A stretch of 64,000 bases of DNA, from the NCBI RefSeq assembly GCF_900113835.1, contig NZ_FOQV01000010.1, forward strand, positions 1-64,000, given 5' to 3'. This DNA comes from Allobosea sp. OK403. GTDB lineage: Bacteria; Pseudomonadota; Alphaproteobacteria; Rhizobiales; Beijerinckiaceae. Shown piece by piece: positions 17,882 to 57,388 of this stretch (its first letter is position 1; every line of letters begins with the position of its first letter). A model generated the notes under the pieces. The model was given only the letters and a program-made list of their open reading frames with translations. It was not told the DNA's origin and ran no database searches. The translations under genes and the position numbers were made by a program.

Positions 17882-18748
17882 TCAGTCTTCGAGCCGCGCG
17901 ATCAGGCTCGAGGTGTCCCAGCGCCGTCCGCCCATCTTCTGGACTTCGGCGTAGAACTGGTCGACCAGCGCGGTGACGGGAAGCTGCGCGCCGTTGCGGC
18001 GCGCCTCCTCCAGCACGATGCCGAGATCCTTGCGCATCCAGTCGACGGCGAAGCCGAAATCGAACTTGCCGGCATTCATGGTCTTGCCGCGGTTCTCCAT
18101 CTGCCAGGAGCCGGCCGCGCCCTTGGAGATCACCTCCAGCATGGCCTCGACATCGAGCCCGGCGCGCTTGGCGAAATGGACACCCTCCGACAGGCCCTGG
18201 ACGAGGCCGGCGATGCAGATCTGGTTGACCATCTTGGTGAGCTGGCCGGAGCCGGCCGGGCCCATCAGCTTGCACATGCGCGCGAAGCTCGCGATCACCG
18301 GCTCGGCGCGGGCATAGACCTCGCGCTCGCCGCCGCACATCACCGTCAGCACGCCGTTCTCGGCGCCGGCCTGGCCGCCCGAGACAGGCGCGTCGATGAA
18401 GCTGAAGCCGGCCGCGCTCGCCGCCTCGTCGAGCTCGCGGGCGACGCCGGCGGAAGCCGTGGTGTGGTCGACGAAGATCGCGCCCTTCTCCATGCCGGAG
18501 AAGGCGCCGCCCTCGCCCAATGTCACCGAGCGCAGATCATCGTCATTGCCGACGCAGGCGAAGACGATCTCCTGGCCCTTGGCCGCCTCGGCCGGGGTCG
18601 GCGCGCTGACGCCGCCATGCTGGGCGACCCAGGCCTTCGCCTTCGCCGGGTTGCGGTTGTAGACCGTGACCTCGTGGCCCTTGGCCTTGAGATGGCCGGC
18701 CATGGGATAGCCCATCACGCCGAGACCGAGGAAGGCGACTTTGGTCAT
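17882..18748 (-). CDS. NAD(P)-dependent 3-hydroxyisobutyrate dehydrogenase-family oxidoreductase
   Basis: The 288-residue protein has an N-terminal Rossmann motif GLGVMGYPMAGHLKAKGHEV (about 7-26), the family signature FIDAPVSGGQAGAENG and the lysine segment GSGQLTKMVNQI, whose Lys is catalytic in the beta-hydroxyacid dehydrogenases. Length fits 3-hydroxyisobutyrate dehydrogenase or tartronate-semialdehyde reductase, and sequence alone does not decide. It is a single gene convergent with dctQM and divergent from the methionine aminopeptidase gene; a hairpin repeat lies in the divergent gap. Confidence 0.88.
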   Translation of the reverse strand: MTKVAFLGLGVMGYPMAGHLKAKGHEVTVYNRNPAKAKAWVAQHGGVSAPTPAEAAKGQEIVFACVGNDDDLRSVTLGEGGAFSGMEKGAIFVDHTTASAGVARELDEAASAAGFSFIDAPVSGGQAGAENGVLTVMCGGEREVYARAEPVIASFARMCKLMGPAGSGQLTKMVNQICIAGLVQGLSEGVHFAKRAGLDVEAMLEVISKGAAGSWQMENRGKTMNAGKFDFGFAVDWMRKDLGIVLEEARRNGAQLPVTALVDQFYAEVQKMGGRRWDTSSLIARLED

Positions 18749-36970: not shown

Positions 36971-37867
36971 TTATGCGGCCTGCTCCAACGATTTGTCGGT
37001 CGCTCCGTCCATCCGGCCGATGGCGATCAGAACAGGCTCCAGCTCGCGCAGCGGCATCTCCTCGAATGGCAGGTTGACGAAGGCCGTGACGCGAGCGGTC
37101 AGGTCGCGATAGCTCTGCAGGAAGGCGGCACGCTTGGCCGCTTGCGGGCCCGAGACCGACGCAGGATCGTCCAGCCCCCAATGCACCCGCATCGGCGCGC
37201 CAGGGAAAGCTGGACATATCTCCTCGGCCGCGTCGTCGCAGACCGTGATGACGAGATCGAGTTCAGGAGCGGCAGGACCAAAGAACTCGTCCCAAGACTT
37301 CGAGCGCATTGCCGAGACGTCATAGCCGAGGTCATCGAGCAAGCCGAGAGCCAGCGGATGAGGCATCTCCTGCGGACGGCTGCCAGCCGAATAGGCCTGG
37401 ATCCGCCCGAGCCCTTCTCGGTTCAGGACCGCCTCGGCCATGATCGAGCGGGCCGAATTACCCGTGCAGACCACGAGCACGCGTAAGGGGCGCTCGCTGG
37501 CAACGAACTCCCGGCGAGCCGGGACGGATAGCGAAACGGGCGCACATCCCACTGGCCTCTCGCTGCAGCAGGCGTCGGAGAGGAAGGCGAGCAGCGCGTC
37601 AGCGCGCGGGGCCTGAGCAGCGAAAATGATGTGGCGGCCTTCCCGCCGCGACGCCAGCAGTCCGACCTGTTCGAGCGCGCCCAGATGGGTCGACAAGGTG
37701 TTGTGCGCCACGGCCAGCAGCCGGCCGATGTCTCCGGCGGCAAGCCCATGCGGACGATACCGCATGAGCAGGCGGAAGATCTCCAGCCGCGTCGGCTGCG
37801 CCAGCGCGCCGAGCAGCGCCACTGCATCGGGAGAATCCAGCCTCGATGCGTCAAGTCCTGGCGTCAC
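36971..37867 (-). CDS. ArsR-ArsC fusion: arsenic-responsive repressor plus low-MW-phosphatase-type arsenate reductase
   Basis: The 298-residue protein joins an ArsR/SmtB winged helix (about 14-95; GALAQPTRLEIFRLL, AVAHNTLSTHLGALEQVGL) to a low-molecular-weight phosphatase-like domain (about 127-298). C100, C101 and C108 (ACCSERPVGC) match the CC-x(5-6)-C arsenite site known from Acidithiobacillus-type ArsR. The phosphatase loop CTGNSARS (134-141) has the CX5R signature of thioredoxin/glutaredoxin-coupled arsenate reductases. The start overlaps the upstream arsC stop (ATGA). It likely represses the divergent arms and also reduces arsenate, or the second domain has become structural. Confidence 0.88.
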   Translation of the reverse strand: MTPGLDASRLDSPDAVALLGALAQPTRLEIFRLLMRYRPHGLAAGDIGRLLAVAHNTLSTHLGALEQVGLLASRREGRHIIFAAQAPRADALLAFLSDACCSERPVGCAPVSLSVPARREFVASERPLRVLVVCTGNSARSIMAEAVLNREGLGRIQAYSAGSRPQEMPHPLALGLLDDLGYDVSAMRSKSWDEFFGPAAPELDLVITVCDDAAEEICPAFPGAPMRVHWGLDDPASVSGPQAAKRAAFLQSYRDLTARVTAFVNLPFEEMPLRELEPVLIAIGRMDGATDKSLEQAA

Positions 37868-38382
37868 GCCGCGTCGTCCCTTCTGCCCATGTCCTTCCCG
37901 ATAGCGTCGAGACGGTGCTGCAGCGCCATGCCTTGCAGCGTTGACAGCGGCAAGCTCGAAAAGATCGAAATCCGATTATTGAGCATGCGGTAGGCGTCCG
38001 CGAAGGCAAGCGCCTTCTGCACGTCTTCCCCTTGGAAGGCAGCAGGATCGGGCAGCGTCCAGAGCGCAGCCATCGGGTTGCCGGGCCAAGCGGGCGGCAC
38101 CGCGTTGGCTGCGGTCTCGGACAAGGTGAAGACGAAGTCGAGCTCTGGCGAGCCAGCTTGGGCGAACTCGTTCCAGCTCTTGGGATGCAGGCCCGCCATA
38201 TCGTGATTCAGGGATTTCAGCAGCCGAGCGACGAATGGGCTGACCTCCGGCTGCGGTTGGCTTCCGGCGCTAAAGACCATGAACTTGTCGCCGGCGAGCC
38301 GCCGCATGATGGATTCCGCCATGATCGAGCGGGCGTGGTTGCCCTTGCAGACGAAGAGGACCTTCAGGGGCGCCGTTTCCAT
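37864..38382 (-). CDS. arsC: Arsenate reductase, low-MW phosphatase family
   Basis: The 172-residue protein starts METAPLKVLFVCKGNHARSI. The P-loop CKGNHARS (12-19) fits CX5R; SWNEFAQAGSPELDFVFTL carries the segment before the second redox region. It reduces arsenate to arsenite in the cytoplasm, or in this context may act on related phosphate-like compounds. It is the first gene of the minus-strand arm of the arsenic locus and is coupled to the ArsR-ArsC fusion. A second phosphatase domain in the next gene makes two ArsC domains in one operon. Confidence 0.86.
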   Translation of the reverse strand: METAPLKVLFVCKGNHARSIMAESIMRRLAGDKFMVFSAGSQPQPEVSPFVARLLKSLNHDMAGLHPKSWNEFAQAGSPELDFVFTLSETAANAVPPAWPGNPMAALWTLPDPAAFQGEDVQKALAFADAYRMLNNRISIFSSLPLSTLQGMALQHRLDAIGKDMGRRDDAA

Positions 38383-38402
38383 GGGATAATCTCGTTATAT
38401 CG

Positions 38403-38457
38403 TTCATGATCGACATGAATGCTGCCCGAGTAATATGTCGTAATCAACCGACATATT
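38403..38457. promoter_or_regulatory. Two inverted repeats in the divergent arsenic promoter
   Basis: TTCATG-ATCGA-CATGAA (38403-38419) and AATATGTCG-N8-CGACATATT (38432-38457) are both perfect. The second resembles ArsR operators in size and AT content. Their position between arsC and the GAPDH gene fits ArsR control of both arms. Confidence 0.8.
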
Positions 38458-38516
38458 GACATGTAGCCTTCATTCAGGCGATGGACCGTTCAGGATCATC
38501 GTAGGGAGCATGGATC

Positions 38517-39560
38517 ATGCGGGTCGGCATCAACGGCATGGGGCGCATCGGGCGCCTGGCTCTGAGGGCAGCTCTCGGCGCCGCCGAGCGCCAGGGCGAC
38601 GATCCGCGTGCCGGCAACCGACTCGACGTCGTGCATCTCAACGAGATCAAGGGCGGAGCCTTGGCGACGGCCCATTTGCTGGAATTCGACAGCATGCAGG
38701 GCCGTTGGCGCGCCGACATAGGCCCAGAGAGTGAGAACGGAATCCGCATCGGCGAGCGCCGGATGGGCTTCTCGGCTCACGCTGCGCCCGAAGATATCCC
38801 TTGGGGTGACCTCGGCGTCGATGTCGTGCTCGAATGTACCGGCAAATTCCTGATGCCTGCCACGATCGAGGGGCATCTGAAGCGCGGTGCCAAGCGCGTC
38901 ATCGTGGCTGCACCAGTCAAAGATGCGTCGGTCCTCAACGTGGTCGTCGGCATCAACGAACATCTCTACAAGCCTGATTTGCATCCGATCGTGACGGCAG
39001 CTTCCTGCACCACCAACTGCCTCGCCCCCGTGGTGAAGGTCGTTCATGAGAACCTGCGTATCCGCCACGGCCAGATCACCACGATCCACGACCCGACGAA
39101 CACGAACGTTGTCGTCGATGCACCGCACAAGGATCTGCGCCGCGCCCGCTCCGCCATGCTCTCGCTCCAGCCGACGACGACCGGCAGCGCCACTGCGATC
39201 GCGCTGATCTATCCTGAACTCAAGGGAAAGCTCGACGGCCACGCCGTTCGTGCGCCGGTGCTCAACGCCTCGCTGACCGATTGCGTCTTCGAGCTGGAGC
39301 GCCCGACGACGGCCGCTGAGGTCAACGAGCTGTTCAAGGCTGCTGCGAAGGGGCCGCTTGCCGGCATCCTGGGCTTCGAGGCGCGGCCGCTGGTCTCGAT
39401 CGACTACCAGCGCGACACGCGCTCCTCGATCATCGACGGTCTGTCGACGCTCGTCACCGATGGGACGATGTTGAAGGTGTACGCCTGGTACGACAACGAG
39501 ATGGGCTATGCCTGCCGCATGGTCGATCTTGCTTGCCACCTCGAACAGGTCGGGATCTGA
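38517..39560 (+). CDS. ArsJ-associated glyceraldehyde-3-phosphate dehydrogenase
   Basis: The 347-residue protein starts [17 protein letters not shown], with the NAD-binding [10 protein letters not shown] and catalytic SCTTNC (C164). The length and the divergent variant sequence are those of GAPDHs linked to arsJ. In that pathway (established for arsJ operons) the enzyme uses arsenate with glyceraldehyde-3-phosphate to form 1-arseno-3-phosphoglycerate, which ArsJ exports. It is followed at one base by arsJ and preceded by ArsR-type operators. Confidence 0.93.
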
Positions 39561-39561
39561 C

Positions 39562-40806
39562 GTGACCGAGGGCTCGCGCAACTACGCCATCGTCACCGCC
39601 GCCTATTGGGGCTTCACGCTGACCGATGGCGCGCTGCGGATGCTCGTGCTGCTGCACTTCTTCCGGCTCGGCTATTCGCCCTTTACACTCGCCTTCCTCT
39701 TCGTTCTCTATGAGGCGGCCGGTATCGCAGCCAACCTGATCGGCGGCTGGCTCGCGGCCCGCTATGGCATCACGCGCATGCTGGCGGTGGGGTTGACGAC
39801 CCAGATCGCGGGATTCCTGCTGCTCTCAGGCCTTTCGCCGGACTGGACCGCGGCCGCCTCAGTGACTTGGGTCGTCATGGCGCAGGGAATCTGCGGGGTC
39901 GCCAAGGATCTGACCAAGACCGCCTCGAAATCTGCAATCAAGGTGGCGGAAGCCACCGCCAAGGCCGAAGACGCGGAGGGCCGCTTGTTCCGTTGGGTTG
40001 CGTGGTTCACCGGCTCGAAGAACGCCATGAAGGGCATCGGCTTCTTCCTCGGCGGGCTGCTGCTGGAGGCGCTGGGCTTCCGTGGCGCGCTTTGGGCGAT
40101 GGCGGCCATGCTCGCGCTGATCCTATTGGGCGTCGTCACCTCGCTGCCGGCGATGCTCGGCAAGGCGAAGGCAAGCAAGACTGCCCGCGAGCTCTTCGCC
40201 AAGAACCGGGCCGTCAACCTGCTGGCACTCGCCCGCGTCGCGCTGTTTGGCGCTCGCGATGTCTGGTTCGTGGTGGGCGTGCCGGTGTTCCTCTATGCGT
40301 CCGGGTGGACCTTCACCATGGTCGGCACCTTTCTGGCGCTCTGGACTATCGGATATGGTGTCGTTCAGGCAGCGGCGCCCGCATTCGTAAAGAGGAGCTC
40401 CGACGGGCTTTCGGCGGAGGTGCCGGCAGCGCGGATGTGGTCTTTGGCCCTTGCCATCGTGCCGGTGGCTATCGCCGCGGTCCTTGCCAGCGCCGCTGGC
40501 CTGCCGGCTGACATGGTTTTGGTCGTGGGGCTATGCGTCTTCGGCTTCGCTTTCGCAGTGAATTCTTCAGTGCACTCCTACCTCATCCTGGCCTATGCCG
40601 GCTCTGAGAAATCGGCAGAGGATGTCGGCTTCTACTATGCGGCGAACGCGCTCGGCCGCTTCGCGGGGACGCTTCTTTCGGGCCTGCTCTACCAAGTCGG
40701 GGGTATCTATGCCTGCCTGATCGGTTCCGCCCTGATGTTGGCAGCCTGCTTCCTCGCGACGCTTGCACTGCCAGGACGTGGTACTTTTGTAACCGCGCGA
40801 GGCTGA
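39562..40806 (+). CDS. arsJ: Organoarsenical efflux MFS protein ArsJ
   Basis: The 414-residue protein begins at GTG 39562 (MTEGSRNYAIVTAAYWGFTL), one base after the GAPDH stop. The N-terminus and GVAKDLTKTASKSAIK with RWVAWFTGSKNAMKGIGFFLG are characteristic of ArsJ. It has about twelve helices. It exports 1-arseno-3-phosphoglycerate, which breaks down outside to arsenate, giving arsenate resistance without arsenite efflux. No arsB or acr3 gene is in the window, so arsenite made by ArsC would need another exit. Confidence 0.93.
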   Translation: MTEGSRNYAIVTAAYWGFTLTDGALRMLVLLHFFRLGYSPFTLAFLFVLYEAAGIAANLIGGWLAARYGITRMLAVGLTTQIAGFLLLSGLSPDWTAAASVTWVVMAQGICGVAKDLTKTASKSAIKVAEATAKAEDAEGRLFRWVAWFTGSKNAMKGIGFFLGGLLLEALGFRGALWAMAAMLALILLGVVTSLPAMLGKAKASKTARELFAKNRAVNLLALARVALFGARDVWFVVGVPVFLYASGWTFTMVGTFLALWTIGYGVVQAAAPAFVKRSSDGLSAEVPAARMWSLALAIVPVAIAAVLASAAGLPADMVLVVGLCVFGFAFAVNSSVHSYLILAYAGSEKSAEDVGFYYAANALGRFAGTLLSGLLYQVGGIYACLIGSALMLAACFLATLALPGRGTFVTARG

Positions 40807-40854: not shown

Positions 40855-40895
40855 GCGAAGCGAAGTGGATACCGCTTCGCTCGAAAATGCTCTAA
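40855..40895. repeat. TAGAGCG-family fragment and hairpin between convergent genes
   Basis: GCGAAGCG (40855-40862) and CGCTTCGC (40873-40880) form a stem with a 10-base loop, followed by TCGAAAATGCTCTA. It lies between arsJ and the last gene of the MarR operon and may serve as a bidirectional terminator. Confidence 0.65.
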
Positions 40896-41710
40896 CGGCC
40901 GGCCGAGCGGTGGCGGATCGCGCGCTCCAGCGACAAGAGCCCGCCATTCGCCAGCACCGCGAAGAGCGCCAGGAACACGCCGATCGCCATGATCGTGTCG
41001 AGATCGCCCAGCCCCATCGCGTTGACGGCGGTGAAGCCCAGGCCCCGCTTCGAGGCGAACATCTCGCCGATCAGGACGCCGAGAAGGCTCAGCGAGAAAC
41101 CGATCCGGATACCGGCGACGAGTTCGGGAATGATCGCCGGCAACACGACTGATCGCACCGCCTCGAACGCGCTGAGCCGCATCACCTTGGCGGTGCGCAG
41201 ATAGACCGGCTTCAATTGGGTGATGGCGTTGCGCGTCAGGAGCGTGATCGGCACGAGCCCATGCATGATGCCGAAGGCGATCTTCGCCGGCATTCCGAGC
41301 CCGAAGATCAGCAGCACCAGCGGATAAAGCGTCACCTTCGGCAGCGAGTAGAAGGTCACCAGGATCGGCTCCATCACCTCGCCGACCGGCCGCAGCAAAG
41401 CGAGCGCGACGCCAAGCCCGATGCCGAGCACGATCGACAGCACCAGCGCCCAGGCGAAAGCCGTGCCGGTCTCGGCAACGTCGAGCCAGAAACGGCCGCT
41501 CCCCATCAATACGACGAGCCGCGCCAAGGTGGCGGCTGGTGAACTGATCGCGCCCGATGCGGTGGCGAGGTGCAGGCCCTGCCAGCACAGGATCAGGACC
41601 AGGGCCAGCACGATCGGCGGCACGATGTTTCGCAAGGCTTCGCCTGGCAGGGTTCGGCTCGGCAGGGTTTTGCTCGCCATGGTTTTGCTCGCCAGGACTT
41701 TGCTCGACAT
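40892..41710 (-). CDS. NMT1/taurine-type ABC transporter permease, second
   Basis: The 272-residue protein has six helices and the EAA-loop region IIPELVAGIRIGFSLSLLGVL. Its first 25 residues (SKVLASKTMASKTLPSRTLP) are translated from four 15-bp tandem units (41646-41705) and have no counterpart in the family; M11 is an alternative start within the array. It follows the first permease by eight bases. The pair forms the membrane channel of an importer of the SsuC/TauC/ThiX type. It is the last gene of the MarR operon. Confidence 0.9.
   Translation of the reverse strand: MSSKVLASKTMASKTLPSRTLPGEALRNIVPPIVLALVLILCWQGLHLATASGAISSPAATLARLVVLMGSGRFWLDVAETGTAFAWALVLSIVLGIGLGVALALLRPVGEVMEPILVTFYSLPKVTLYPLVLLIFGLGMPAKIAFGIMHGLVPITLLTRNAITQLKPVYLRTAKVMRLSAFEAVRSVVLPAIIPELVAGIRIGFSLSLLGVLIGEMFASKRGLGFTAVNAMGLGDLDTIMAIGVFLALFAVLANGGLLSLERAIRHRSAGR
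41646..41705. repeat. Four in-frame 15-bp tandem units in the permease N-terminus
   Basis: Units on the plus strand are GGCAGGGTTCGGCTC, GGCAGGGTTTTGCTC, GCCATGGTTTTGCTC and GCCAGGACTTTGCTC, followed by GACAT, which holds the complementary start codon. One unit contributes a second in-frame ATG (41680). Confidence 0.95.
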
Positions 41711-41718
41711 CTTGAACC

Positions 41719-42468
41719 TCAGCGGCGCAGGCGCGATTGCAGGCGGCGGTCGAGCCTGTCGAGCGTCATGTTGACGAGCGTGACCGCGATCACGATCAGC
41801 AGCATCAGCCCGTACATCTGCCGGTTCTCGAAATTGTTGTAGGCATAGGCGATGGCGTAGCCGAGCCCGTCGCCCGACAGGATGAACTCCGAGGCGATGA
41901 CGCCGATGAAGGAGTAGGCCACGCTCAGCCGCGCCCCGGTGAAGAAATACGGCGCCGCCGCCGGCAGCTGGATCAAGAGCGCGGTCTTGACCGGCGACAG
42001 GCGCATGATCCGGGCGGTGCGCAGCAGCACGGTCGGAATCCGGTCGAGGCCGTTCATCGTGGCGGTGATCATCGCCACGATCGAGAGCAGCACGGCGATG
42101 GCGATGATGGCGGCGCTGTTGACACCGAACAGCACGATAAAGACCGGATAGAAGATGAAGGTCGGGACGGCGTAGTAGCTGGCGAGATAGGGCTCGACCG
42201 CGCGCCGCAGAAAATCGCTGGCATGGATCGCGACGCCCAGCACGAAGCCTGCCGAAATCGAGATCACGACCGAGATCATCACATTGGTCAGGGTCAGGGC
42301 GATCGCGCGGTTGAACTCGCCCGACCAGAGGATGTCGCGGAGGCTGCCGACCATCTCGCTGGGCGGGATAATCACGGTCCTGGCGACCCAGCCCAAGGCG
42401 CAGGCCAGTTCCAGCGCCAGCACGCAGGCCAGCACGACGGCCAGGGTGACGAGCGCACGATATCTCAT
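41719..42468 (-). CDS. NMT1/taurine-type ABC transporter permease, first
   Basis: The 249-residue protein has six helices, YAVPTFIFYPVFIVLFGV and the EAA segment PAAAPYFFTGARLSVAYSFIG typical of the TauC/SsuC permease group (quoted up to GARLS as the key block). Its start overlaps the ATPase stop (ATGA). Two different permeases suggest a heterodimeric channel, less common than the single permease of taurine systems and closer to HMP/riboflavin-precursor importers such as ThiXYZ-like or RibXY. Confidence 0.9.
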   Translation of the reverse strand: MRYRALVTLAVVLACVLALELACALGWVARTVIIPPSEMVGSLRDILWSGEFNRAIALTLTNVMISVVISISAGFVLGVAIHASDFLRRAVEPYLASYYAVPTFIFYPVFIVLFGVNSAAIIAIAVLLSIVAMITATMNGLDRIPTVLLRTARIMRLSPVKTALLIQLPAAAPYFFTGARLSVAYSFIGVIASEFILSGDGLGYAIAYAYNNFENRQMYGLMLLIVIAVTLVNMTLDRLDRRLQSRLRR

Positions 42469-43316
42469 CGCGGTCCGGCGCCTTGCGTCTGCATGTGCTT
42501 CATCGTTTCAGTGCGCAGCTTCTCCCAGATCCGGCCGGTCATCTCGCCGAAGCGCGGATCGGCGACGATCCGGCTGTCGCGGTCGCTGGGCCAGCCGGTC
42601 TCGATGATGTCGATGAACAGGCCGGGCCGCGCCGACATCACCCCGACGCGGTCGGCCAGCATCGCGGCTTCGTCGAGCGAATGCGTGATCAGCAGCACGG
42701 TCGCCCTGGTCTCGCGCCAGAGCCGCAGCAATTCGTCGCCCATGATCAGCCGGGTCTGCTGGTCGAGCGCGCCGAAAGGCTCGTCGAGCAGGATCAGCCG
42801 CGGCTGCAGCACGAGCGTGCGTGCGATGCAGACGCGCTGCCGCATGCCGCCCGAGAGCTGCGCCGGATAGGATTGCCGGAAATCGCGCAGGCCCATGAAG
42901 CCGACGGCATAATCGACGCGGCGATCGATCTCGGCCTGGCCGATTCCAGCCCGCTTCAGGCCGAAGGCGACATTGGCCTCGACCGTCAGCCAGGGAAACG
43001 AGGCGTCCTCCTGGAAGACGACGCCGATGCCGTCGGGCACGCCGGCGATCGGCTTGCCCTCGAAGCTCGCCGTGCCTTCGCTGGGCGGGTTCAGCCCCGC
43101 CAGCACATCGAGCAGCGTCGATTTTCCGCAGCCCGACGGGCCGACGACCGAGAAGAACTCGCCCTGCCGGAGATCGAGATCGATCGGCCCCAGCGCGTGC
43201 AGCGTCTTAGCCCCGCCGGGGAAGCGGTAATGACGCGTCACGCCCCTGAGGCTCGCGGCCGGCGGCTCGATTGCGGCTTTCGGCGCGTCGCGCGACGCCA
43301 TGGCGAGGACCGTCAT
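42465..43316 (-). CDS. ABC transporter ATP-binding protein (SsuB/TauB-like)
   Basis: The 283-residue protein starts MTVLAMASRDAPKAAIEP at the ATGA overlap with the binding-protein gene. Walker A GPSGCGKST, Q-loop VFQEDASFPWLTVEANV, signature LSGGMRQRVCIARTL, Walker B LILLDEPFGALD and switch His ITHSLDEA are all intact. It energises import through the two downstream permeases. The C-terminal 50 residues after the core (FGEMTGRIWEKLRTE) are standard for this subfamily. Confidence 0.93.
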   Translation of the reverse strand: MTVLAMASRDAPKAAIEPPAASLRGVTRHYRFPGGAKTLHALGPIDLDLRQGEFFSVVGPSGCGKSTLLDVLAGLNPPSEGTASFEGKPIAGVPDGIGVVFQEDASFPWLTVEANVAFGLKRAGIGQAEIDRRVDYAVGFMGLRDFRQSYPAQLSGGMRQRVCIARTLVLQPRLILLDEPFGALDQQTRLIMGDELLRLWRETRATVLLITHSLDEAAMLADRVGVMSARPGLFIDIIETGWPSDRDSRIVADPRFGEMTGRIWEKLRTETMKHMQTQGAGPR

Positions 43317-44302
43317 TGGTCGGTCTTGAGGTCGGCCGGCAGGAAGGAGCGGTCGATCAGCGCCCCCCAATCCGGCAAGGCCGAGATTTCACCGACGAGC
43401 TTGAGGCCCTCGCCGATCCGGTTCAGCTCGGCCGTGCTGAAGCCGCCTTCGCTCCACATCTGCGGCTCGATCATGTTCAGCATCGCGACCTTGGCCAGGC
43501 CCGGATCCATGTTGAACTGCTTGGCGACCATGTCGGAGGCGGCTTCCGGCGCGCGGTAGATCGCCTGCACGCCCATGCGGCGGCCGGCGATCAGGGCCTT
43601 CAGCTGCTCGGGCTTGGCCTTGGCGAAATCGCGGGTGGTGATGCCGACCGAAGTCGTCATCGCCGGCAGCAGGCCCTTGGCCGCGATCACCGTGCGGTAG
43701 CGGTCCTTGCGCAGGATCGACAGCGGCTCGATCAGGACGGCGGCCGAGACGGCTCCCTGTTCCAGCATGGTCAGCCCCTGCGTATAGCCGCCGGACGCGA
43801 TGCGCTGGATCTTCGAGGCGTCGATGCCCTTCGCCGCCAGCTCCATCAGGAAGACCATTTCGGAGGTCGATTTCGGCGAGGTGATCGCGACCTTCTTGCC
43901 GACGAGGTCCTCGAGGCTCTTGATCTCCGAGTTCGGCATCGTCACCAGGCTGGCCTCGGCGACCGTGCGGGTGCCGGAATGGATCAGCACGACCGGCAGC
44001 CCCTGCCTGGCGGCCGCCAGCGCTGCGGCCGTGGCGACCTCGCCATAGGGTACCTCGCTCGCCAGGATGTTGCGAACGCTCGTGCCGCCGCCGCCCGAGC
44101 CGACCACGCCGGTCACATCGATGCCAGCCTTCTTGAAATCGCCCTGCTCGATTGCAACAGCCACCGGAGCGCCATAGAGGCTCGCGCCCCATTGGGTGAT
44201 CGAGATCTCGACCGCGCCGGCCGGGCCCGACAGTATCGACGTCGCGGCGAAGGCGAGCGCCCCCACCAGGGCTCGAGCGTGACTGCGTGTCTTGAAAGCC
44301 AT
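43313..44302 (-). CDS. NMT1/THI5-like periplasmic binding protein
   Basis: The 329-residue protein starts MAFKTRSHARALVGALAFAA after a GGGAGAAAT site, with signal cleavage near GPAGA. It has ISITQWGASLYGAPVAVAIEQGDFKKAGIDV (quoted in part: GASLYGAPVAVAIEQG), a Gly-rich VVGSGGGGTSVRNIL, DLVGKKVAITSPKS and a two-lobe layout typical of NMT1/SsuA-type proteins that bind thiamine pyrimidine, riboflavin or aromatic sulfonates. Ligand is unknown. Given NadC and nucleotide-salvage enzymes in the operon, a nitrogen heterocycle is a reasonable guess. Confidence 0.88.
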   Translation of the reverse strand: MAFKTRSHARALVGALAFAATSILSGPAGAVEISITQWGASLYGAPVAVAIEQGDFKKAGIDVTGVVGSGGGGTSVRNILASEVPYGEVATAAALAAARQGLPVVLIHSGTRTVAEASLVTMPNSEIKSLEDLVGKKVAITSPKSTSEMVFLMELAAKGIDASKIQRIASGGYTQGLTMLEQGAVSAAVLIEPLSILRKDRYRTVIAAKGLLPAMTTSVGITTRDFAKAKPEQLKALIAGRRMGVQAIYRAPEAASDMVAKQFNMDPGLAKVAMLNMIEPQMWSEGGFSTAELNRIGEGLKLVGEISALPDWGALIDRSFLPADLKTDQ

Positions 44303-44359
44303 ACGATTTCTCCCGAAAATCGCCGCCCGCACTCCGAAGGGGAGAACGCGGCCGCAGTT

Positions 44360-44433
44360 GATAGCCAAAGCCCGTGGATAGCCAAGCCCCGTGGTCAGCA
44401 AGGCCGGGCTGTGTTCAGAACGACTCGGCTGTG
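44360..44433. repeat. Tandem 17-bp and 20-bp duplications between the fusion and binding-protein genes
   Basis: GATAGCCAAAGCCCGTG and GATAGCCAAGCCCCGTG (44360-44393) are followed by GTCAGCAAGGCCGGGCTGTG and TTCAGAACGACTCGGCTGTG (44394-44433). The last unit reaches the stop codon of the PhnN fusion gene (44435-44437). The region 44303-44434 holds no gene. Confidence 0.9.
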
Positions 44434-44434
44434 C

Positions 44435-46486
44435 TCAGACCGTCTCGAAAACCTCGCTCAGCGTGATGCCCGATCGTCTCGACGACAATTCGACGGCCGC
44501 GTCCAGATCGGCCGCTCCCGTCGCGTGAATGGTGTAGAGCGCCCCGCCGGCCGCGACGCGCTGCCCCACCGATGTCGCAAGATCGATGCCTGCGGCCTTG
44601 ACGGCCGGCGCGCCGGCGCTGCGCGCGACGCCGGCCAGCTGCCAGCCGTCGACGCTTACGACGCGGCCCGCCTGGGCGGCCCGCACGACATGGGTCAGGG
44701 GTCCTGGCTCGATCCGGGCCGTGCGCCCCTGCGCCGCCACGATGCGCTCGAAGCGGTCGCGGGCCGCGCCCGACGCCAGCAGCGCCTCGGCCCGCGCCCG
44801 TCCGCGCGTGGAATCGCCGATTGCGGGATCGAAGGACAGGATCTCCGCGGCGAAGGTCAGCGCCTTCTCGCGCAGATCGCTGGGGGCCGCCGGGTCGCAA
44901 TCCAGCACCAGGCCGACATCGCGCAGCTCCAAAGCGGGCCCGATGCCGCGGCCGATCGCGCTGCTGCCGTCAGTGGCCAGCGCGCGCACCGTAAGGCCGA
45001 GCCCGGCGCCGACCAGCTCGAAGACGCGGCAGAGTTCGCGCGCGTCAGCCAGGGTCTTCAGCTTGGCGTTGGGGCCGTAGGGACAATCGACCGCGACATG
45101 GGTCGATCCCGCAGTCCATTTCTTCGACATGATCGAGGCGACCGACCAGCGATTGCTGTCGAGGCCGAGCGGCCGCGTGATCGCATTGACCACGTCGTCG
45201 AGCGCGGAATGGTTGAGCCGGCCGTTCCAGGCGATGCAGGCGCCGGTCTCGCGCACGACGCGGGCGACATCTTCAGCCGTCAGGTCGACCCGGCAGGCGG
45301 CTTCCATTGCATCGGCCGTGCCCGATGCCGAGGTGATGGCGCGCGACGAGGTTTTGGGCATCAGCAGCCCGTGGGCGGCGACGATCGGGACCACGATCAG
45401 GGTGATGCGGCTGCCGGGAATACCGCCGAGCGAATGCTTGTCGACGACGATCGGCGCGTCCCAGGCGATCCTGGGCATGAAGCGGCAGCGCGCCTGCGCC
45501 ACGGCGACGACCTCGGTATCGTCGAGGTTCTGGATCGTCCTGACCAGGAAGGCCGAGACCTCGCTCTCGGGATAACGATCCTCGACGATGTCGCGGAACA
45601 GCGTCTCGTATTCATCGGCGCAGAGGCGCCCGCCATCGATCTTGCGGCAGAGCAGCGCGCGGCTGCCGGGTGTCGGCGTGCGCCTGATCGACACCCTGTG
45701 GCCCTCCGGCAGCGCCAGTGCGTCGAAGGCCTCGGCCGAGAGGCCGATCTCGTCATCGCGCAGAAGCGCGCCCGGCTCCACCATGCTGACCGCGGCCCGC
45801 ACGCTGCGCCCCGCCGCCATGAGCTCGATGCGCCCGCTGCCGGCATAGGTCGCGGCCGGCACCGCGCTGCTGTCCTGCGGCAGGAACGCCATGTTCGCGC
45901 GCCCCGCATGGATCGGCATGCGGCGCAGCGCCATGCGCGCGGCGGCGCTCTCGATCACTGCGACAAGGTGCTCGATCCCGGCCTCGACGCTCGCATCATT
46001 GGCAACCGTCAGGAGCTCGATCCTCTCCGGCAGCGGATCGGGACTGCGGTCGAGGCGCCGGTCGATCTCGGCTGCGCTCTCGCGGCCACGCGCCAGGATG
46101 CGCTCCCGCAATCTTGCGCGTGGCGCCGTGATCTCGACGACGACGAGACGCGGCACGACGTCGATCAGCCCCGCCAAGGCCCCTCGCGAGCCATTGGCGA
46201 CGACATGGCGCCCGGCCTCGAGCTCGGCGCGCAGCTCAATCGGCAGCCCGTAACTCAGCCCATGCGCCTGCCAGCGATGCAGGAAGCCGCCGGCCGCGAC
46301 ACGGCGTTCGAACTCTTCGGGAGAGACGGGCTCGTGATCCTCGCCCGGCCCTTCCGCGCGCGTGATCGCCCGCCGGCAGGCGACATAGCGGCCCGACGCC
46401 GCAAGAGTGGTCATCGCGCCGGCGATCAGCGTGTCCTTCCCGACACCGCTCGCACCAACAATGACGAAGAGAATGCCGGGTTTCAT
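44435..46486 (-). CDS. Fusion of PhnN (ribose 1,5-bisphosphokinase) and AMP-phosphorylase-like enzyme
   Basis: The 683-residue protein has two parts. Residues 1-185 are a PhnN/guanylate-kinase-like domain with Walker A VGASGVGKDT (10-19) and SYGLPIELRAELEAG; PhnN turns ribose 1,5-bisphosphate plus ATP into PRPP. Residues about 190-683 are a DeoA/AMP-phosphorylase-type domain: an N-terminal small barrel, then VVDKHSLGGIPGSRIT, PIVAAHGLLMPKTSSRAITS, GTADAME and ASIMSKKWTAGSTHVAVD. These match archaeal AMP phosphorylase blocks (KHSxGGxPGxR, PKTSSRAITS) more than thymidine phosphorylase. Archaeal AMP phosphorylase makes ribose 1,5-bisphosphate from NMP and phosphate. The fusion would therefore channel NMP to PRPP; that is inference. 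Confidence 0.9.
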   Translation of the reverse strand: MKPGILFVIVGASGVGKDTLIAGAMTTLAASGRYVACRRAITRAEGPGEDHEPVSPEEFERRVAAGGFLHRWQAHGLSYGLPIELRAELEAGRHVVANGSRGALAGLIDVVPRLVVVEITAPRARLRERILARGRESAAEIDRRLDRSPDPLPERIELLTVANDASVEAGIEHLVAVIESAAARMALRRMPIHAGRANMAFLPQDSSAVPAATYAGSGRIELMAAGRSVRAAVSMVEPGALLRDDEIGLSAEAFDALALPEGHRVSIRRTPTPGSRALLCRKIDGGRLCADEYETLFRDIVEDRYPESEVSAFLVRTIQNLDDTEVVAVAQARCRFMPRIAWDAPIVVDKHSLGGIPGSRITLIVVPIVAAHGLLMPKTSSRAITSASGTADAMEAACRVDLTAEDVARVVRETGACIAWNGRLNHSALDDVVNAITRPLGLDSNRWSVASIMSKKWTAGSTHVAVDCPYGPNAKLKTLADARELCRVFELVGAGLGLTVRALATDGSSAIGRGIGPALELRDVGLVLDCDPAAPSDLREKALTFAAEILSFDPAIGDSTRGRARAEALLASGAARDRFERIVAAQGRTARIEPGPLTHVVRAAQAGRVVSVDGWQLAGVARSAGAPAVKAAGIDLATSVGQRVAAGGALYTIHATGAADLDAAVELSSRRSGITLSEVFETV

Positions 46487-46508: not shown

Positions 46509-47345
46509 TCAGCGCGGCTCGTCGAGGCCGATATCGACCGCCGGCGCCGATTGCAGCGGCCGGCTCGTCGAGACGTAGTCGACGCCGGTCTCGGCGATCG
46601 CCGCGATGGTATCGAGCCTGATCCCGCCCGAGGCCTCCAGCGCCGCCCGGCCAGCGACGAAGAGGACGGCTTCGCGCATCGCCGGGATCGCCATATTGTC
46701 GAGCATGATCACATCGGCGCCGGCCGCCAGCGCCTCGCGGACCTGCTCCAGCCGGTCGCATTCGACCTCGATCTTGGTCAGCGCCGGAACCTTCAGCTTC
46801 GCCCGGCGAACCGCCTCAGAGATGCTGCCGCAGACCGCGATGTGGTTGTCCTTGAGCATCACGCCATTGTCGAGGCCAAGCCGGTGATTGAGCGCACCGC
46901 CGCAGGCTGAGGCATGCTTCTCCAGCATCCGCAGGCCCGGCGTCGTCTTGCGGGTGTCGAGCAGCCGCGCCTTGGTGTGGGCGATGGCGGAGGCATATTT
47001 CGCGGTCTCGGTCGCGATGCCCGAGAGGCGCTGGACGATGTTGAGCGCCACGCGCTCGGCGGTGAGCAGGGCCTGGGCCGGCCCGCTGACGATCATCAGC
47101 ACCGCGCCCTTGTCGACGGCTTGCCCGTCCTCGACCTTCAGCTCCACCTGGCAGGATGGCTCGTAGCGCGTGAAGACGGCGGCGGCGACCTCGATGCCGG
47201 CGACCGTAATCGGCTCGCGCGCATTCATGTGAAAGGTGGCCCGGGCCTTCGGATCGATCATCAGCTGGGCCGTCAGGTCGAAGAAGCCGATGTCCTCCGC
47301 CAGCCAGAGGTCGACCATGCGAAGTGCGGAGAAGCGGTCATACAT
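46509..47345 (-). CDS. nadC: NadC-type (quinolinate) phosphoribosyltransferase
   Basis: The 278-residue protein starts MYDRFSALRMVDLWLAEDIG. The signature LLDTRKTTPGLRMLEKHA, CGGALNHRLGLDNGVMLKDNH and DVIMLDNM are those of nicotinate-nucleotide pyrophosphorylase (NadC), which makes nicotinate mononucleotide from quinolinate and PRPP with CO2 release; ModD-type paralogues share the fold. No nadA or nadB is adjacent, so it may be a specialised paralogue. It precedes the PRPP-making fusion by 22 bases. The segment between it and marR holds a 15-bp tandem duplication. Confidence 0.85.
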   Translation of the reverse strand: MYDRFSALRMVDLWLAEDIGFFDLTAQLMIDPKARATFHMNAREPITVAGIEVAAAVFTRYEPSCQVELKVEDGQAVDKGAVLMIVSGPAQALLTAERVALNIVQRLSGIATETAKYASAIAHTKARLLDTRKTTPGLRMLEKHASACGGALNHRLGLDNGVMLKDNHIAVCGSISEAVRRAKLKVPALTKIEVECDRLEQVREALAAGADVIMLDNMAIPAMREAVLFVAGRAALEASGGIRLDTIAAIAETGVDYVSTSRPLQSAPAVDIGLDEPR

Positions 47346-47396: not shown

Positions 47397-47879
47397 TCAG
47401 AACATTTTCCGGAGAACGAAGATCGCCGCCGCCTGCTCGGCGGGATTGAGCTCCGCTAGGGTGCGGTGCGTGATGTCGCGCGCCCGGGGAATCATCTCGT
47501 CGAGCAGGGCCCGCCCCGCCGGCGTGATCGCGACCAGGACCTTGCGGGCGTCGTGGCGGTCCTTGTCGAGGGTGATGCAGCCGCGCGCGTGCAGGCGCTC
47601 GAGAATGCCGCGGATCGTGCCCTGGTCGATCGCCGTGGCGGCGATGAGATCCTTCTGGGAGGCCTGGCCCTGGCGCTCAAGGGCGCACAAGGTCGCGAAC
47701 TGGACCGCGGTCATCTGCGGGTCGCCGATATGCTCCTGGAAGATCGCGAGATGGCGGTGATAGGCGCGCCGCAGCAAGTAGCCGATCTGCTCGGTGACGT
47801 CGTAAGGCTCAGGCAGCGTCGCGCGGGCCGCGTTCTCGGCAGCGTCATGGGCCGGTCCCGACTGTCCTGACGCGAGCAT
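47397..47879 (-). CDS. MarR-family regulator of the downstream operon
   Basis: The 160-residue protein starts MLASGQSGPAHDAAENAARA. The winged helix MTAVQFATLCALERQGQASQKDLIAATAIDQGTIRGILERL (about 56-96; key block QKDLIAATAIDQGTIRGIL) and wing DKDRHDARKVLVAITPAG are typical MarR. It is the first gene of a seven-gene minus-strand run ending at 40892, and a palindrome lies 50 bases upstream. It probably represses itself and the operon until a phenolic or heterocyclic ligand binds. Confidence 0.92.
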   Translation of the reverse strand: MLASGQSGPAHDAAENAARATLPEPYDVTEQIGYLLRRAYHRHLAIFQEHIGDPQMTAVQFATLCALERQGQASQKDLIAATAIDQGTIRGILERLHARGCITLDKDRHDARKVLVAITPAGRALLDEMIPRARDITHRTLAELNPAEQAAAIFVLRKMF

Positions 47880-55336: not shown

Positions 55337-56416
55337 TCAGGCCTCCGCCGTCCCCTTCCCCGCCACACCGGCCTGAGCGAAGGTCGCCATGCCGGAATGG
55401 ATCGCGGCGGCGGCCTTGACCAGCGAGGCGGCAAGCGCCGCGCCCGTGCCCTCGCCCAAACGCATGTCGAGCGCCAGCAGCGGCTGCTTGCCGAGCCGGG
55501 CCAGGACCTGCGCATGCGCGCCCTCGGCCGAGAGATGACCGGCGAGGCAATGGTCGATCGATGACGGCTCCAGCGCGTGCAGGATCGCGGCGGCGGCAGT
55601 GACGACATAGCCGTCGAGAATGACCGGGATGCGCTGCGAGCGCGCGGCGATGATGGCGCCGCAGATCGCCGCGATCTCGCGCCCGCCGAAGCGGCGCAGG
55701 ACCTCGAGCGGGTCACCGAGATGGGCCGCGTGCAGGGCAAGCCCCGCCTCGACGGCGGCGACCTTGCGCTTCAGACCCGCATCATCGACGCCGGTGCCGC
55801 GGCCGCACCACATCGCCGCATCACCGCCATAGAGCGCGGCATAGATAGCGGCGGCCGAGGTGGTGTTGCCGATGCCCATCTCGCCGAGGCATAGCAGATC
55901 AGCCCCGCCCGCGAGCGCCTCCATGCCGAAGGCCATGGTGGCGACGCAGGCGCGCTCGTCGAGCGCGTCCCCTTGCGTGAAATCGCCGGTCGGCAGGTCG
56001 AGCGCGAGGTCAAAGACCTTGAAGCCGATATCGAAAGCCGCGCAGATCTGGTTGATCGCCGCGCCGCCGGCGGCGAAATTCTCCAGCATCTGGCGCGTCA
56101 CCGCCTGCGGAAAGGCGGAGACGCCCTGGGCCACGACGCCGTGATTCCCGGCGAAGACGCAGACCAGCGGCCGGTCGACGCGCGGGATCGGCTTGGCCTG
56201 CCAGGCGGCGAGCCATTCGGCGATCTCCTCCATGCGGCCGAGGCTGCCGGCGGGCTTGGTCAATTCCTTGTCGCGGGCGCGCACCGCATTGGCCGCGGCC
56301 ATGTCGGGGCCAGGCATGGCGGCAATGAGCTGGCGGATATCGTCGAAGGGCAAGCCGGAAGCGGGCATGGGCGTCTCGTCGGGCGATGCGGAGATGGGCA
56401 CCGGGCGCTTCGCCAT
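55337..56416 (-). CDS. cobT: Nicotinate-nucleotide-dimethylbenzimidazole phosphoribosyltransferase
   Basis: From ATG 56416 the protein has 359 residues; ATG 56368 (MPASGLPFDD) is an alternative closer to the family's usual length. KPAGSLGRMEEIAEWLAAWQ, FAGNHGVVAQGVSAFPQAVT, CLGEMGIGNTTSAAA and the catalytic segment RLGEGTGAALAA are CobT hallmarks. It makes alpha-ribazole phosphate for the lower ligand of cobalamin. It is divergent from cobS, 81 bases apart. No cobalamin riboswitch was recognised between them. Confidence 0.95.
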   Translation of the reverse strand: MAKRPVPISASPDETPMPASGLPFDDIRQLIAAMPGPDMAAANAVRARDKELTKPAGSLGRMEEIAEWLAAWQAKPIPRVDRPLVCVFAGNHGVVAQGVSAFPQAVTRQMLENFAAGGAAINQICAAFDIGFKVFDLALDLPTGDFTQGDALDERACVATMAFGMEALAGGADLLCLGEMGIGNTTSAAAIYAALYGGDAAMWCGRGTGVDDAGLKRKVAAVEAGLALHAAHLGDPLEVLRRFGGREIAAICGAIIAARSQRIPVILDGYVVTAAAAILHALEPSSIDHCLAGHLSAEGAHAQVLARLGKQPLLALDMRLGEGTGAALAASLVKAAAAIHSGMATFAQAGVAGKGTAEA

Positions 56417-56482
56417 GGCGGCCGGCTCGCCGCTGCTGCTATAGGCTCGGGCGCATGAAGACAATCGAGGACAACGAGACGG

Positions 56483-56510
56483 CATGAGCGAAACACCATG
56501 AGCGAGACGC
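56483..56510. repeat. Tandem 14-bp duplication of the cobS start
   Basis: CATGAGCGAAACAC (56483-56496) is followed by CATGAGCGAGACGC (56497-56510). The upstream ATG opens a five-codon mini-ORF (ATG AGC GAA ACA CCA TGA, 56484-56501) whose stop overlaps the cobS start as ATGA. Confidence 0.95.
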
Positions 56511-57388
56511 AGGCCGAGAGCGCAAACGCCCCGCGAAACGAGCCGTCATTTCAAGACGAGCCGTCATCTCAGGACAAGCCGACTTGGCCGGGCTGGCTGG
56601 CGGCAACCGCGATCTGCGTGCGCTTCTATTCGCGGCTGCCGTTTCCGCGCCTGGCGAGCGAGGGCGAGGTCCACGCCATGCCAGATTTCCGGCTGGTGCC
56701 GCGCGCCTTGCCGCTCGCCGCCCTCCTCATCGCGCTGCCGGCAGCGCTGATCCTGCTGGGCGCGGGCCTTGCCGGCATCAACCCGACGCTTTCAGCCGTG
56801 CTCGCCGTCACCGCCCTCGTGCTCACCACCGGGGCCTTCCATGAGGACGGTCTCGCCGACACCGCCGACGGGCTGTTCGGCGGACATAGCCCGGAACGGC
56901 GCCTGGAGATCATGAAGGACAGCCGCGTCGGAACTTTTGGGGCGATGGCGCTGGGATTGTCGCTGCTGCTGCGCGTCACGACGCTGGCCGCGATCCTGGC
57001 GGCGGCGGGCCCTTGGGCTGCGGCCGGCGCCGTCCTCATCGCCGCGCCCTGGTCGCGGGCGGAGGGCATCTATCTGCTCGCGACCGAGAAACCGGCGCGC
57101 ATGGAGGGCGCATCGGTGGCGGTCGGCCGGCCGACGGGACGCACGGCCCTGATCGCATTTTGCCTGTCGGCTGCCTTTGCGATCGTTCTTGACACCTCAT
57201 TCGCCCTGCCGCCCTTCGGCCTGGTGCTCGGCTGGTTCCTCAGCGTCGGCACCGTGGCGGTCTTCAAGCGGCTCTGCCGCCGCCTGATCGGCGGGCAGAC
57301 CGGCGATATCGTCGGCGCGATGCAGCAGCTCTCCGAGATCGCGATCTATCTCGGCTTCGCGCTCATGCTGGGAGCGACCAAGCCGTGA
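56498..57388 (+). CDS. cobS: Adenosylcobinamide-GDP ribazoletransferase
   Basis: The 296-residue membrane protein starts MSETQAESANAPRNEPSFQD. The metal/phosphate-binding segment HEDGLADTADGLFGG and RRLEIMKDSRVGTFG are intact, and about six helices are seen. It joins adenosylcobinamide-GDP with alpha-ribazole in the last step of cobalamin assembly. Residues 14-27 come from an in-frame 18-bp duplication (56538-56580). The start is in a second duplication. It is coupled by GTGA to the DUF1289 gene. Confidence 0.95.
   Translation: MSETQAESANAPRNEPSFQDEPSSQDKPTWPGWLAATAICVRFYSRLPFPRLASEGEVHAMPDFRLVPRALPLAALLIALPAALILLGAGLAGINPTLSAVLAVTALVLTTGAFHEDGLADTADGLFGGHSPERRLEIMKDSRVGTFGAMALGLSLLLRVTTLAAILAAAGPWAAAGAVLIAAPWSRAEGIYLLATEKPARMEGASVAVGRPTGRTALIAFCLSAAFAIVLDTSFALPPFGLVLGWFLSVGTVAVFKRLCRRLIGGQTGDIVGAMQQLSEIAIYLGFALMLGATKP
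56538..56580. repeat. In-frame 18-bp tandem duplication in the cobS N-terminus
   Basis: ACGAGCCGTCATTTCAAG (56538-56555) and ACGAGCCGTCATCTCAGG (56556-56573) are followed by a partial ACAAGCC. It encodes the repeat NEPSFQD / DEPSSQD / DKP. Confidence 0.93.

Follow-up and report, generated by a model that had tools for sequence, protein, structure and literature searches.

A PhnN–phosphorylase fusion encoded beside nadC may recycle PRPP in a putative route from quinolinate to nicotinate

Here, we describe a protein encoded in the window (the whole stretch of Allobosea sp. OK403 DNA that was analysed, 64,000 nucleotides long) in which a PhnN-type kinase is fused to a phosphorylase-like domain. 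From its sequence and setting, it is probably a nicotinate mononucleotide (NaMN) phosphorylase and ribose 1,5-bisphosphokinase, partnered with the adjacent NadC so that PRPP is recycled.

In the proposed cycle, quinolinate would be imported by an uptake system and would react with PRPP on NadC to give NaMN, CO2 and PPi. The C-terminal domain of the fusion would then split NaMN with Pi into nicotinate and ribose 1,5-bisphosphate, from which the PhnN domain, using ATP, would make PRPP and ADP, returning PRPP to NadC, while nicotinate would enter the nicotinate catabolic genes. The net reaction would be quinolinate + ATP + Pi -> nicotinate + CO2 + ADP + PPi, and PRPP, as the carrier, would be recycled. 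The NadC and PhnN reactions are established enzymology of their families; uptake, phosphorolysis, the entry of nicotinate into catabolism and the cycle as a whole are what we infer. A pyridinium N-riboside has an energy-rich glycosidic bond, and its phosphorolysis should be favourable. We lean towards a catabolic cycle, in which PRPP would be a regenerated activating group and quinolinate would be ribosylated and decarboxylated before nicotinate is freed. The proposal draws on what can be read from the sequences compared, namely the domain make-up of the fusion, its conserved catalytic residues and gene context, its clade and its changed alignment columns.

Domain structure of the fusion

The fusion protein is real; the plus-strand reading of 44435–46486 is its antisense frame (Table 1), and B. 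psychrotolerans has a copy that is 97% identical. Residues 4–179 pass the NCBIfam PhnN model TIGR02322 (161.5 bits, cut-off 156), and GASGVGKDT, found in the translation, meets the pattern GxSGxGKD and aligns with GPSGSGKDS of E. coli PhnN, in agreement with the original prediction of an N-terminal PhnN domain with an intact Walker A motif. Plasmid records annotate the fused protein as PhnN only.

Residues 185–677 pass two further NCBIfam models, NF003338 (581.1 bits, cut-off 434) and TIGR02645 (444.9 bits, cut-off 434.6), and miss the cut-off of the AMP phosphorylase equivalog TIGR03327 (382.8 against 535 bits). The nearest solved structures to this domain are those of the T. kodakarensis AMP phosphorylase (4ga4, 4ga5 and 4ga6; 4ga5 at 3.9e-82). 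The predicted KHSxGGxPGxR and PKTSSRAITS blocks are present in the translation as KHSLGGIPGSR and PKTSSRAITS. A DeoA/PyNP-type identity, which the prediction had likewise dismissed, is out, with scores far below the cut-offs of those models (TIGR02643, 115.4 against 570.7 bits; TIGR02644, 145.9 against 409.05 bits). The proposed synthesis of PRPP from nucleoside monophosphates stands in part: the protein is bifunctional, has its motifs intact and would be able to do so in principle, but the AMP-type identity given to its phosphorylase is doubtful, as the TIGR03327 cut-off is missed, the domain falls in a separate clade and base-site columns differ (see below). Together, that cut-off and the altered columns lead us to reject plain AMP phosphorylase as the most likely identity. 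NaMN is likely to be the substrate rather than AMP, with AMP, CMP and UMP as possible alternatives.

Table 1 Features of the fusion gene, its surroundings in the window and the transport systems beside nadC–fusion pairs
Feature	Position or locus	Strand	Basis or remark
phnN::phosphorylase fusion gene	44435..46486	minus	683 aa; single intact ORF and family profile matches
PhnN (ribose 1,5-bisphosphokinase) domain, aa 1–182	45941..46486	minus	TIGR02322 and alignment to E. coli PhnN
Walker A GASGVGKDT, aa 11–19	46430..46456	minus	translation; alignment to E. coli PhnN
AMP-phosphorylase/thymidine-phosphorylase-2-like domain, aa 183–683	44438..45940	minus	NF003338; 4ga5
Arg333	45488..45490	minus	Met in 54/54 stand-alone rows and archaeal AMP phosphorylase
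KHSLGGIPGSR, aa 350–360	45407..45439	minus	His351 aligned with human TP His116
PKTSSRAITS, aa 377–386	45329..45358	minus	alignment
Segment aa 420–451, expected base site	45134..45229	minus	N421, R423, H426, N434, A435, T437, S448 mark clade; R438, S451 conserved
MarR-family regulator	47397..47879	minus	family profiles; 51 bp upstream of nadC
nadC, quinolinate phosphoribosyltransferase	46509..47345	minus	TIGR00078; conserved neighbour; 22 bp upstream of fusion
ABC substrate-binding protein, NMT1/SsuA type	43313..44401	minus	start uncertain, 44401 or 44320; 33 bp from fusion if 44401
ABC transporter ATPase	42465..43370	minus	family profiles
ABC transporter permease 1	41719..42468	minus	family profiles
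ABC transporter permease 2	40892..41710	minus	family profiles
ABC system by nadC–fusion	window, L004, L104, L193		
TRAP-TAXI by nadC–fusion	L063, L074, L086, L087, L133, L105, L194, L195		
TTT binding protein by nadC–fusion	L103		
MFS by nadC–fusion	L134, L135		

Gene neighbourhood and host genome

The fusion gene lies in a one-strand row that runs from a MarR-family regulator through nadC and the fusion to an ABC binding protein, an ATPase and two permeases; downstream of the binding-protein gene, successive genes overlap or sit 8 bp apart. The window NadC scores 321.1 bits with TIGR00078 (cut-off 198.4) and 105.4 bits with the ModD model, below the 178.85 set for that model. The operon is adjoined by arsenic genes (36971–40806), among them those for an ArsJ organoarsenical exporter (39508–40806) and its GAPDH partner (38517–39560), and we take the ORFs upstream of this pair to resemble ArsR and arsenate reductase. 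ORFs at 55337–57388, ~8 kb from nadC, presumably resemble cobT and cobS. CobT likewise consumes nicotinate mononucleotide, freeing nicotinate.

As the original prediction had held, PhnN is here outside its phosphonate context. Queries with E. coli PhnF, G, H, I, J, L, M, P and D gave no match in the window to any ORF of at least 90 aa at 1e-8, PhnC and PhnK queries matched ABC ATPases only (25–32% identity; 25–28% for PhnK), and the PhnN query found the fusion. A phn cluster elsewhere in the genome with a phnN of its own, raised in the prediction as a point to check, is present: contig C13 carries phnF, G, H, I, J, K, L and M with a separate phnN (L097), so the fusion is an additional phnN. 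The fusion as part of a phosphonate cluster is out, there being no phnG–M genes beside its phnN.

The host nadA lies on contig C15 (L184), beside a nadB-like ORF (FAD_binding_2) and an NrtR-like regulator, with no nadC near these genes, and the window nadC is the sole QRPTase_C match in the host genome. De novo NAD synthesis in this host seems to rely on the window's nadC. Since this is the only NadC detected and nadA and the nadB-like gene are elsewhere, the window NadC would serve NAD synthesis too, in which case NaMN in this host would be contested between NAD synthesis and the fusion.

Fused phosphorylase domains form one clade linked to nadC

Relatives were collected from family, order and phylum samples, one order scan, plasmids and L004, a locus nearly identical to the window. 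One sample's 48 places were reduced by seven (the second copies in G633 and G672, and the places in G596, G407, G656, G480 and G611), and five of 154 plasmid records were used (H1, H2, H3, H14 and H16), with H4 and H5, also above 80% coverage, left out. A tree was built from 75 rows, comprising 20 fused and 54 stand-alone phosphorylase domains and the archaeal AMP phosphorylase; L065, L068 and L129 (covering the same places as retained rows), the partial L141, and L067 (another genome, but equal in length and score to the kept L066) were omitted. All 20 fused domains form one clade with a support of 100/100, apart from the stand-alone domains and the archaeal AMP phosphorylase. The stand-alone enzymes (NF003338/TIGR02645) are 37–45% identical to the window's phosphorylase domain.

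At 1e-120, 300 genomes from the order to which G624 belongs yielded one fusion and two stand-alone relatives. Searched at 1e-130, a threshold at which divergent fusions were possibly missed, 385 genomes of the class yielded three more fusions, in other families. These three and the 20 tree rows make up 23 fused loci, representing fewer than 23 independent events given the near identity of L004 to the window and the single genus of L062 and L064. PhnN covers at least aa 4–171 in all 22 fused loci other than the window. In L104 (near 18543–18601) and L135 (near 9311–9330) the phosphorylase domain is without its first 80–90 residues, and a full-length PhnN joins the phosphorylase core almost directly. 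G110 and G629 were not counted as fusions; the PhnN part without a phosphorylase in the former (L070) and the interrupted, partial phosphorylase without PhnN in the latter (L136) suggest loss of the fusion.

A nadC gene lies within 600 bp of 14 of the 20 fused tree rows versus none of the 54 stand-alone rows (Fisher p = 8.5e-11, uncorrected for kinship). It also adjoins the fusion in all three later loci, bringing the totals to 17/23 and 0/54. NadCs linked to fusions are 59–82% identical to the window NadC (98% in L004); G337 and G624 each have a second NadC copy, 42–43% identical to it. Six genomes with a nadC–fusion pair (G004, G011, G052, G189, G337 and G756) gave no nadA match, so NadC is unlikely to complete the aspartate route there. 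The fused tree rows without nadC beside them (L085 and L088–L092) form one subclade within one genus-level group, and their genomes gave no match to nadC or nadA. These six fusions adjoin cytochrome bc1 genes, a setting that is uninformative for function.

Uptake systems of several types are found beside the pair or within ~2 kb of it in 15 of the 17 nadC–fusion loci (Table 1), and no transporter was recognised beside the pair in L062 and L064. The three later fusions each have an ABC or TRAP-TAXI system adjoining, and the ABC system is common to Bosea, a Paraburkholderia plasmid and G1352. With nadC and a transporter beside the fusion, the likely nucleotide is nicotinate mononucleotide. Additionally, an FRG-domain protein (a similarity cluster named by Pfam in L104 and by annotation in L103) is encoded beside or near the pair in L104 (19870–20712), L103 (15484–16293) and L135 (12028–12804), and a SIR2-like domain protein adjoins the fusion in L134 (7979–9184).

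Changed residues at the expected base site

In human TP, the base is hydrogen-bonded by His116, Arg202, Ser217 and Lys221, according to the part of PMC2719695 available to us. A mapping to human TP based solely on sequence alignment, with hand-counted numbers and a one-residue gap near Arg202, places human His116, Ser117, Arg202, Ser217 and Lys221 at H351, S352, R438, S451 and K455 of the fusion. These five residues are kept in 20/20 fused tree rows; in the later row L195, Arg438 is replaced by Gly. The position of human Tyr199 is Ala435 in all 20 fused rows, and that of human Leu148 is Ile in all rows.

Ten of 491 columns have no residue in common between the fused rows and the stand-alone plus archaeal rows (308, 333, 336, 353, 361, 421, 426, 434, 437 and 448), and half of them lie at 421–448 (binomial p = 5.7e-4, uncorrected for kinship, for 420–458, a stretch picked after seeing the data). 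Relative to the stand-alone enzymes, the fused domains have R333 for Met, H426 for Leu, N434 for Ile/Val and T/N/V437 for an invariant Glu. R333, H426, N434 and the loss of Glu437 are kept in all three later fusions and also in the fused genes without nadC. R423 occurs in 20/20 fused tree rows, and also in seven of the 54 stand-alone rows; the later L194 has Asn423. The added positive charge and the lost Glu would fit a carboxylate-bearing base, and R333, R423 and H426 may face it. Column 448, at the position of human Ile214 lining the base pocket, holds S/D/A in fused rows versus Met/Leu; an anionic base is not obviously favoured by Asp448, which is found in 8/20 fused rows. AlphaFold2 run on the fusion without an alignment gave a pLDDT of 39.9.

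Link to nicotinate catabolism

The nearest tie to nicotinate catabolism is seen in L063 (G004), where eight successive genes on one strand encode NadC, the fusion, an FAD subunit, a MoCo/2Fe-2S subunit, Hnr, UPF0280 and two AA_synth proteins. In L062 and L064, nadC is flanked in divergent orientation by hnr, UPF0280 and two AA_synth genes; the divergent hnr is ~0.3 kb from nadC (G011 and G052). The nicotinate-cluster genes were located by tblastn, and the name hnr (6-hydroxynicotinate reductase) was taken from plasmid annotation at 66–70% identity. An annotated Neorhizobium stretch contains hnr, with nicB at a distance of ~8 kb, together with proteins that match UPF0280 and AA_synth. The available part of PMC3511419 assigns the hnr cluster to nicotinate degradation (Azorhizobium, Bradyrhizobiaceae). 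The window's host genome has its nicotinate-type genes (FAD subunit–MoCo subunit–hnr–UPF0280) clustered on contig C19, a different contig from the fusion.

Across 56 hand-picked genomes (16 with an intact fusion, 16 with a stand-alone enzyme only and 24 with neither, including G110 and G629), hnr is present in 11/16, 9/16 and 4/24, respectively. The comparison of 11/16 fused with 13/40 of all others gives p = 0.018, uncorrected for kinship, and hnr was not found in the fused genomes G189, G296, G756, G676 and G624. As nine of the 16 stand-alone carriers also have hnr, its presence at genome level fails to separate fused from stand-alone. By contig and coordinates, however, hnr lies less than 5 kb from the fusion in three of the 11 fused genomes that carry it, and near the phosphorylase in none of the nine stand-alone hnr genomes, where it is separated from the phosphorylase by hundreds of kb or lies on a different contig; closeness of hnr, unlike mere presence, does speak for a link to the fusion. 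All three later fused genomes have hnr, versus 64/376 genomes of the class, as do five of the six genomes with a nadC-less fusion. A Pfam scan of eight flanking proteins of L135, L104 and L133 recognised no nicotinate genes. In L134 and L064, MoCo/cytochrome c proteins encoded near the fusion may be nicotinate dehydrogenases.

These observations bear on three other readings. In the first, the fusion would degrade AMP, CMP and UMP to supply PRPP to NadC, and scavenged quinolinate would pass through NaMN to NAD, which is the original prediction with nadC added and is near the role that PMC11452294, in the part available, gives to phnN beside nadC. The adjacency of nadC to a PhnN that yields PRPP agrees with such a supply, as does the seeming dependence of the window genome on this NadC for de novo NAD, and the archaeal homologue takes AMP, CMP and UMP (PMC9700705, available part); however, nicotinate catabolic genes in a row with the pair are left unexplained, and so are base-site changes at columns that are constant or nearly so in the 54 stand-alone enzymes and the AMP phosphorylase. 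We consider this reading unlikely.

Less probable still is a NaMN/NAD turnover valve, which would break down excess NaMN, whatever its origin, to nicotinate while saving the ribose as PRPP, making the tie to quinolinate incidental. Such a valve would be compatible with the nadC-less fusions, which retain R333, H426, N434 and the Glu437 loss in genomes that mostly (5/6) have hnr, and with a second role of the window NadC in NAD synthesis, but not readily with nadC adjoining 17/23 fused loci and transporters being encoded near the pair in 15/17. General scavenging of AMP or other NMPs to PRPP, with no special pyridine tie, is very improbable in view of the separate clade, the nadC adjacency and the changed columns, despite the NF003338/TIGR02645 family placement and a stand-alone relative that neighbours a PRPP-synthetase-like gene on a plasmid of Sphingobium.

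Discussion

Our preferred reading remains NaMN phosphorolysis coupled to PRPP recycling with NadC, against which stand the six fused loci without nadC, the part that the window NadC would have in NAD synthesis, the lack of an hnr match in five of the 16 fused genomes of the hand-picked set and the location of the window genome's hnr on another contig. To our knowledge, no member of the fused clade has a measured activity. Among the matches listed in a search of open-licence PMC, there was no report of NaMN phosphorylase activity, and nothing on NaMN phosphorolysis by such a fusion or on a PRPP-recycling quinolinate pathway; PMC13141931, in the part available, cites a paper on quinolinic acid degradation by Alcaligenes faecalis JQ191.

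If the proposal is true, it would add an entry route from quinolinate into nicotinate catabolism, with quinolinate as food, and a pyridine-specific nucleotide phosphorylase. In bacteria that lack nadA, some nadC genes would then belong to catabolism and not to vitamin salvage. It would also be a second case, beside C-P lyase, of PhnN recycling a ribosyl carrier after cleavage of a hard bond. In the C-P lyase pathway, PhnN rebuilds PRPP once the ribosyl carrier has served, and by analogy the logic of the cycle would be the same, with quinolinate replacing the phosphonate. The kinase family is the same, and in both cases the spent carrier would return to PRPP via ribose 1,5-bisphosphate, although the fusion lies outside a phn cluster.

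Among phosphorylases, the archaeal AMP (NMP) phosphorylase TK0352 (T. kodakarensis, 4ga4–4ga6) shares the fold family and the HS.GG.PG and PKTSSRAITS motifs, and by this likeness the fusion would be expected to cleave a nucleoside 5'-monophosphate phosphorolytically to ribose 1,5-bisphosphate. It differs from TK0352 in having a PhnN part, a nadC neighbour and a score under the AMP phosphorylase cut-off, and in the replacement of the equivalents of M146, L239 and I247, of the Glu before the base Arg and of the Met at 448. The stand-alone thymidine phosphorylase 2 enzymes (NF003338/TIGR02645) have the same catalytic residues as the fusion, but none of the 54 is beside nadC and their base-site columns differ.

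A closer parallel in gene order is the nadC–phnN–bug27 arrangement of Variovorax and Jezberella described in PMC11452294, which is the kind of locus seen in L103, with a member of a quinolinate-binding family by nadC. In the part of that paper available to us, the Bordetella TTT proteins Bug27 and Bug69 are reported to bind quinolinate in vitro, and orthologues of bug27 are noted next to nadC and phnN in Variovorax; phnN is tied to the PRPP that NadC consumes in NAD metabolism, with no recycling proposed, and the term 'thymidine phosphorylase' is absent from its main text. Finally, the hnr type of nicotinate degradation (PMC3511419, available part) has its counterpart in L063, where hnr, the FAD/MoCo dehydrogenase, UPF0280 and AA_synth are encoded beside the pair; compared with that pathway, the fused loci would add a quinolinate entry step, formed by NadC and the fusion, in front.
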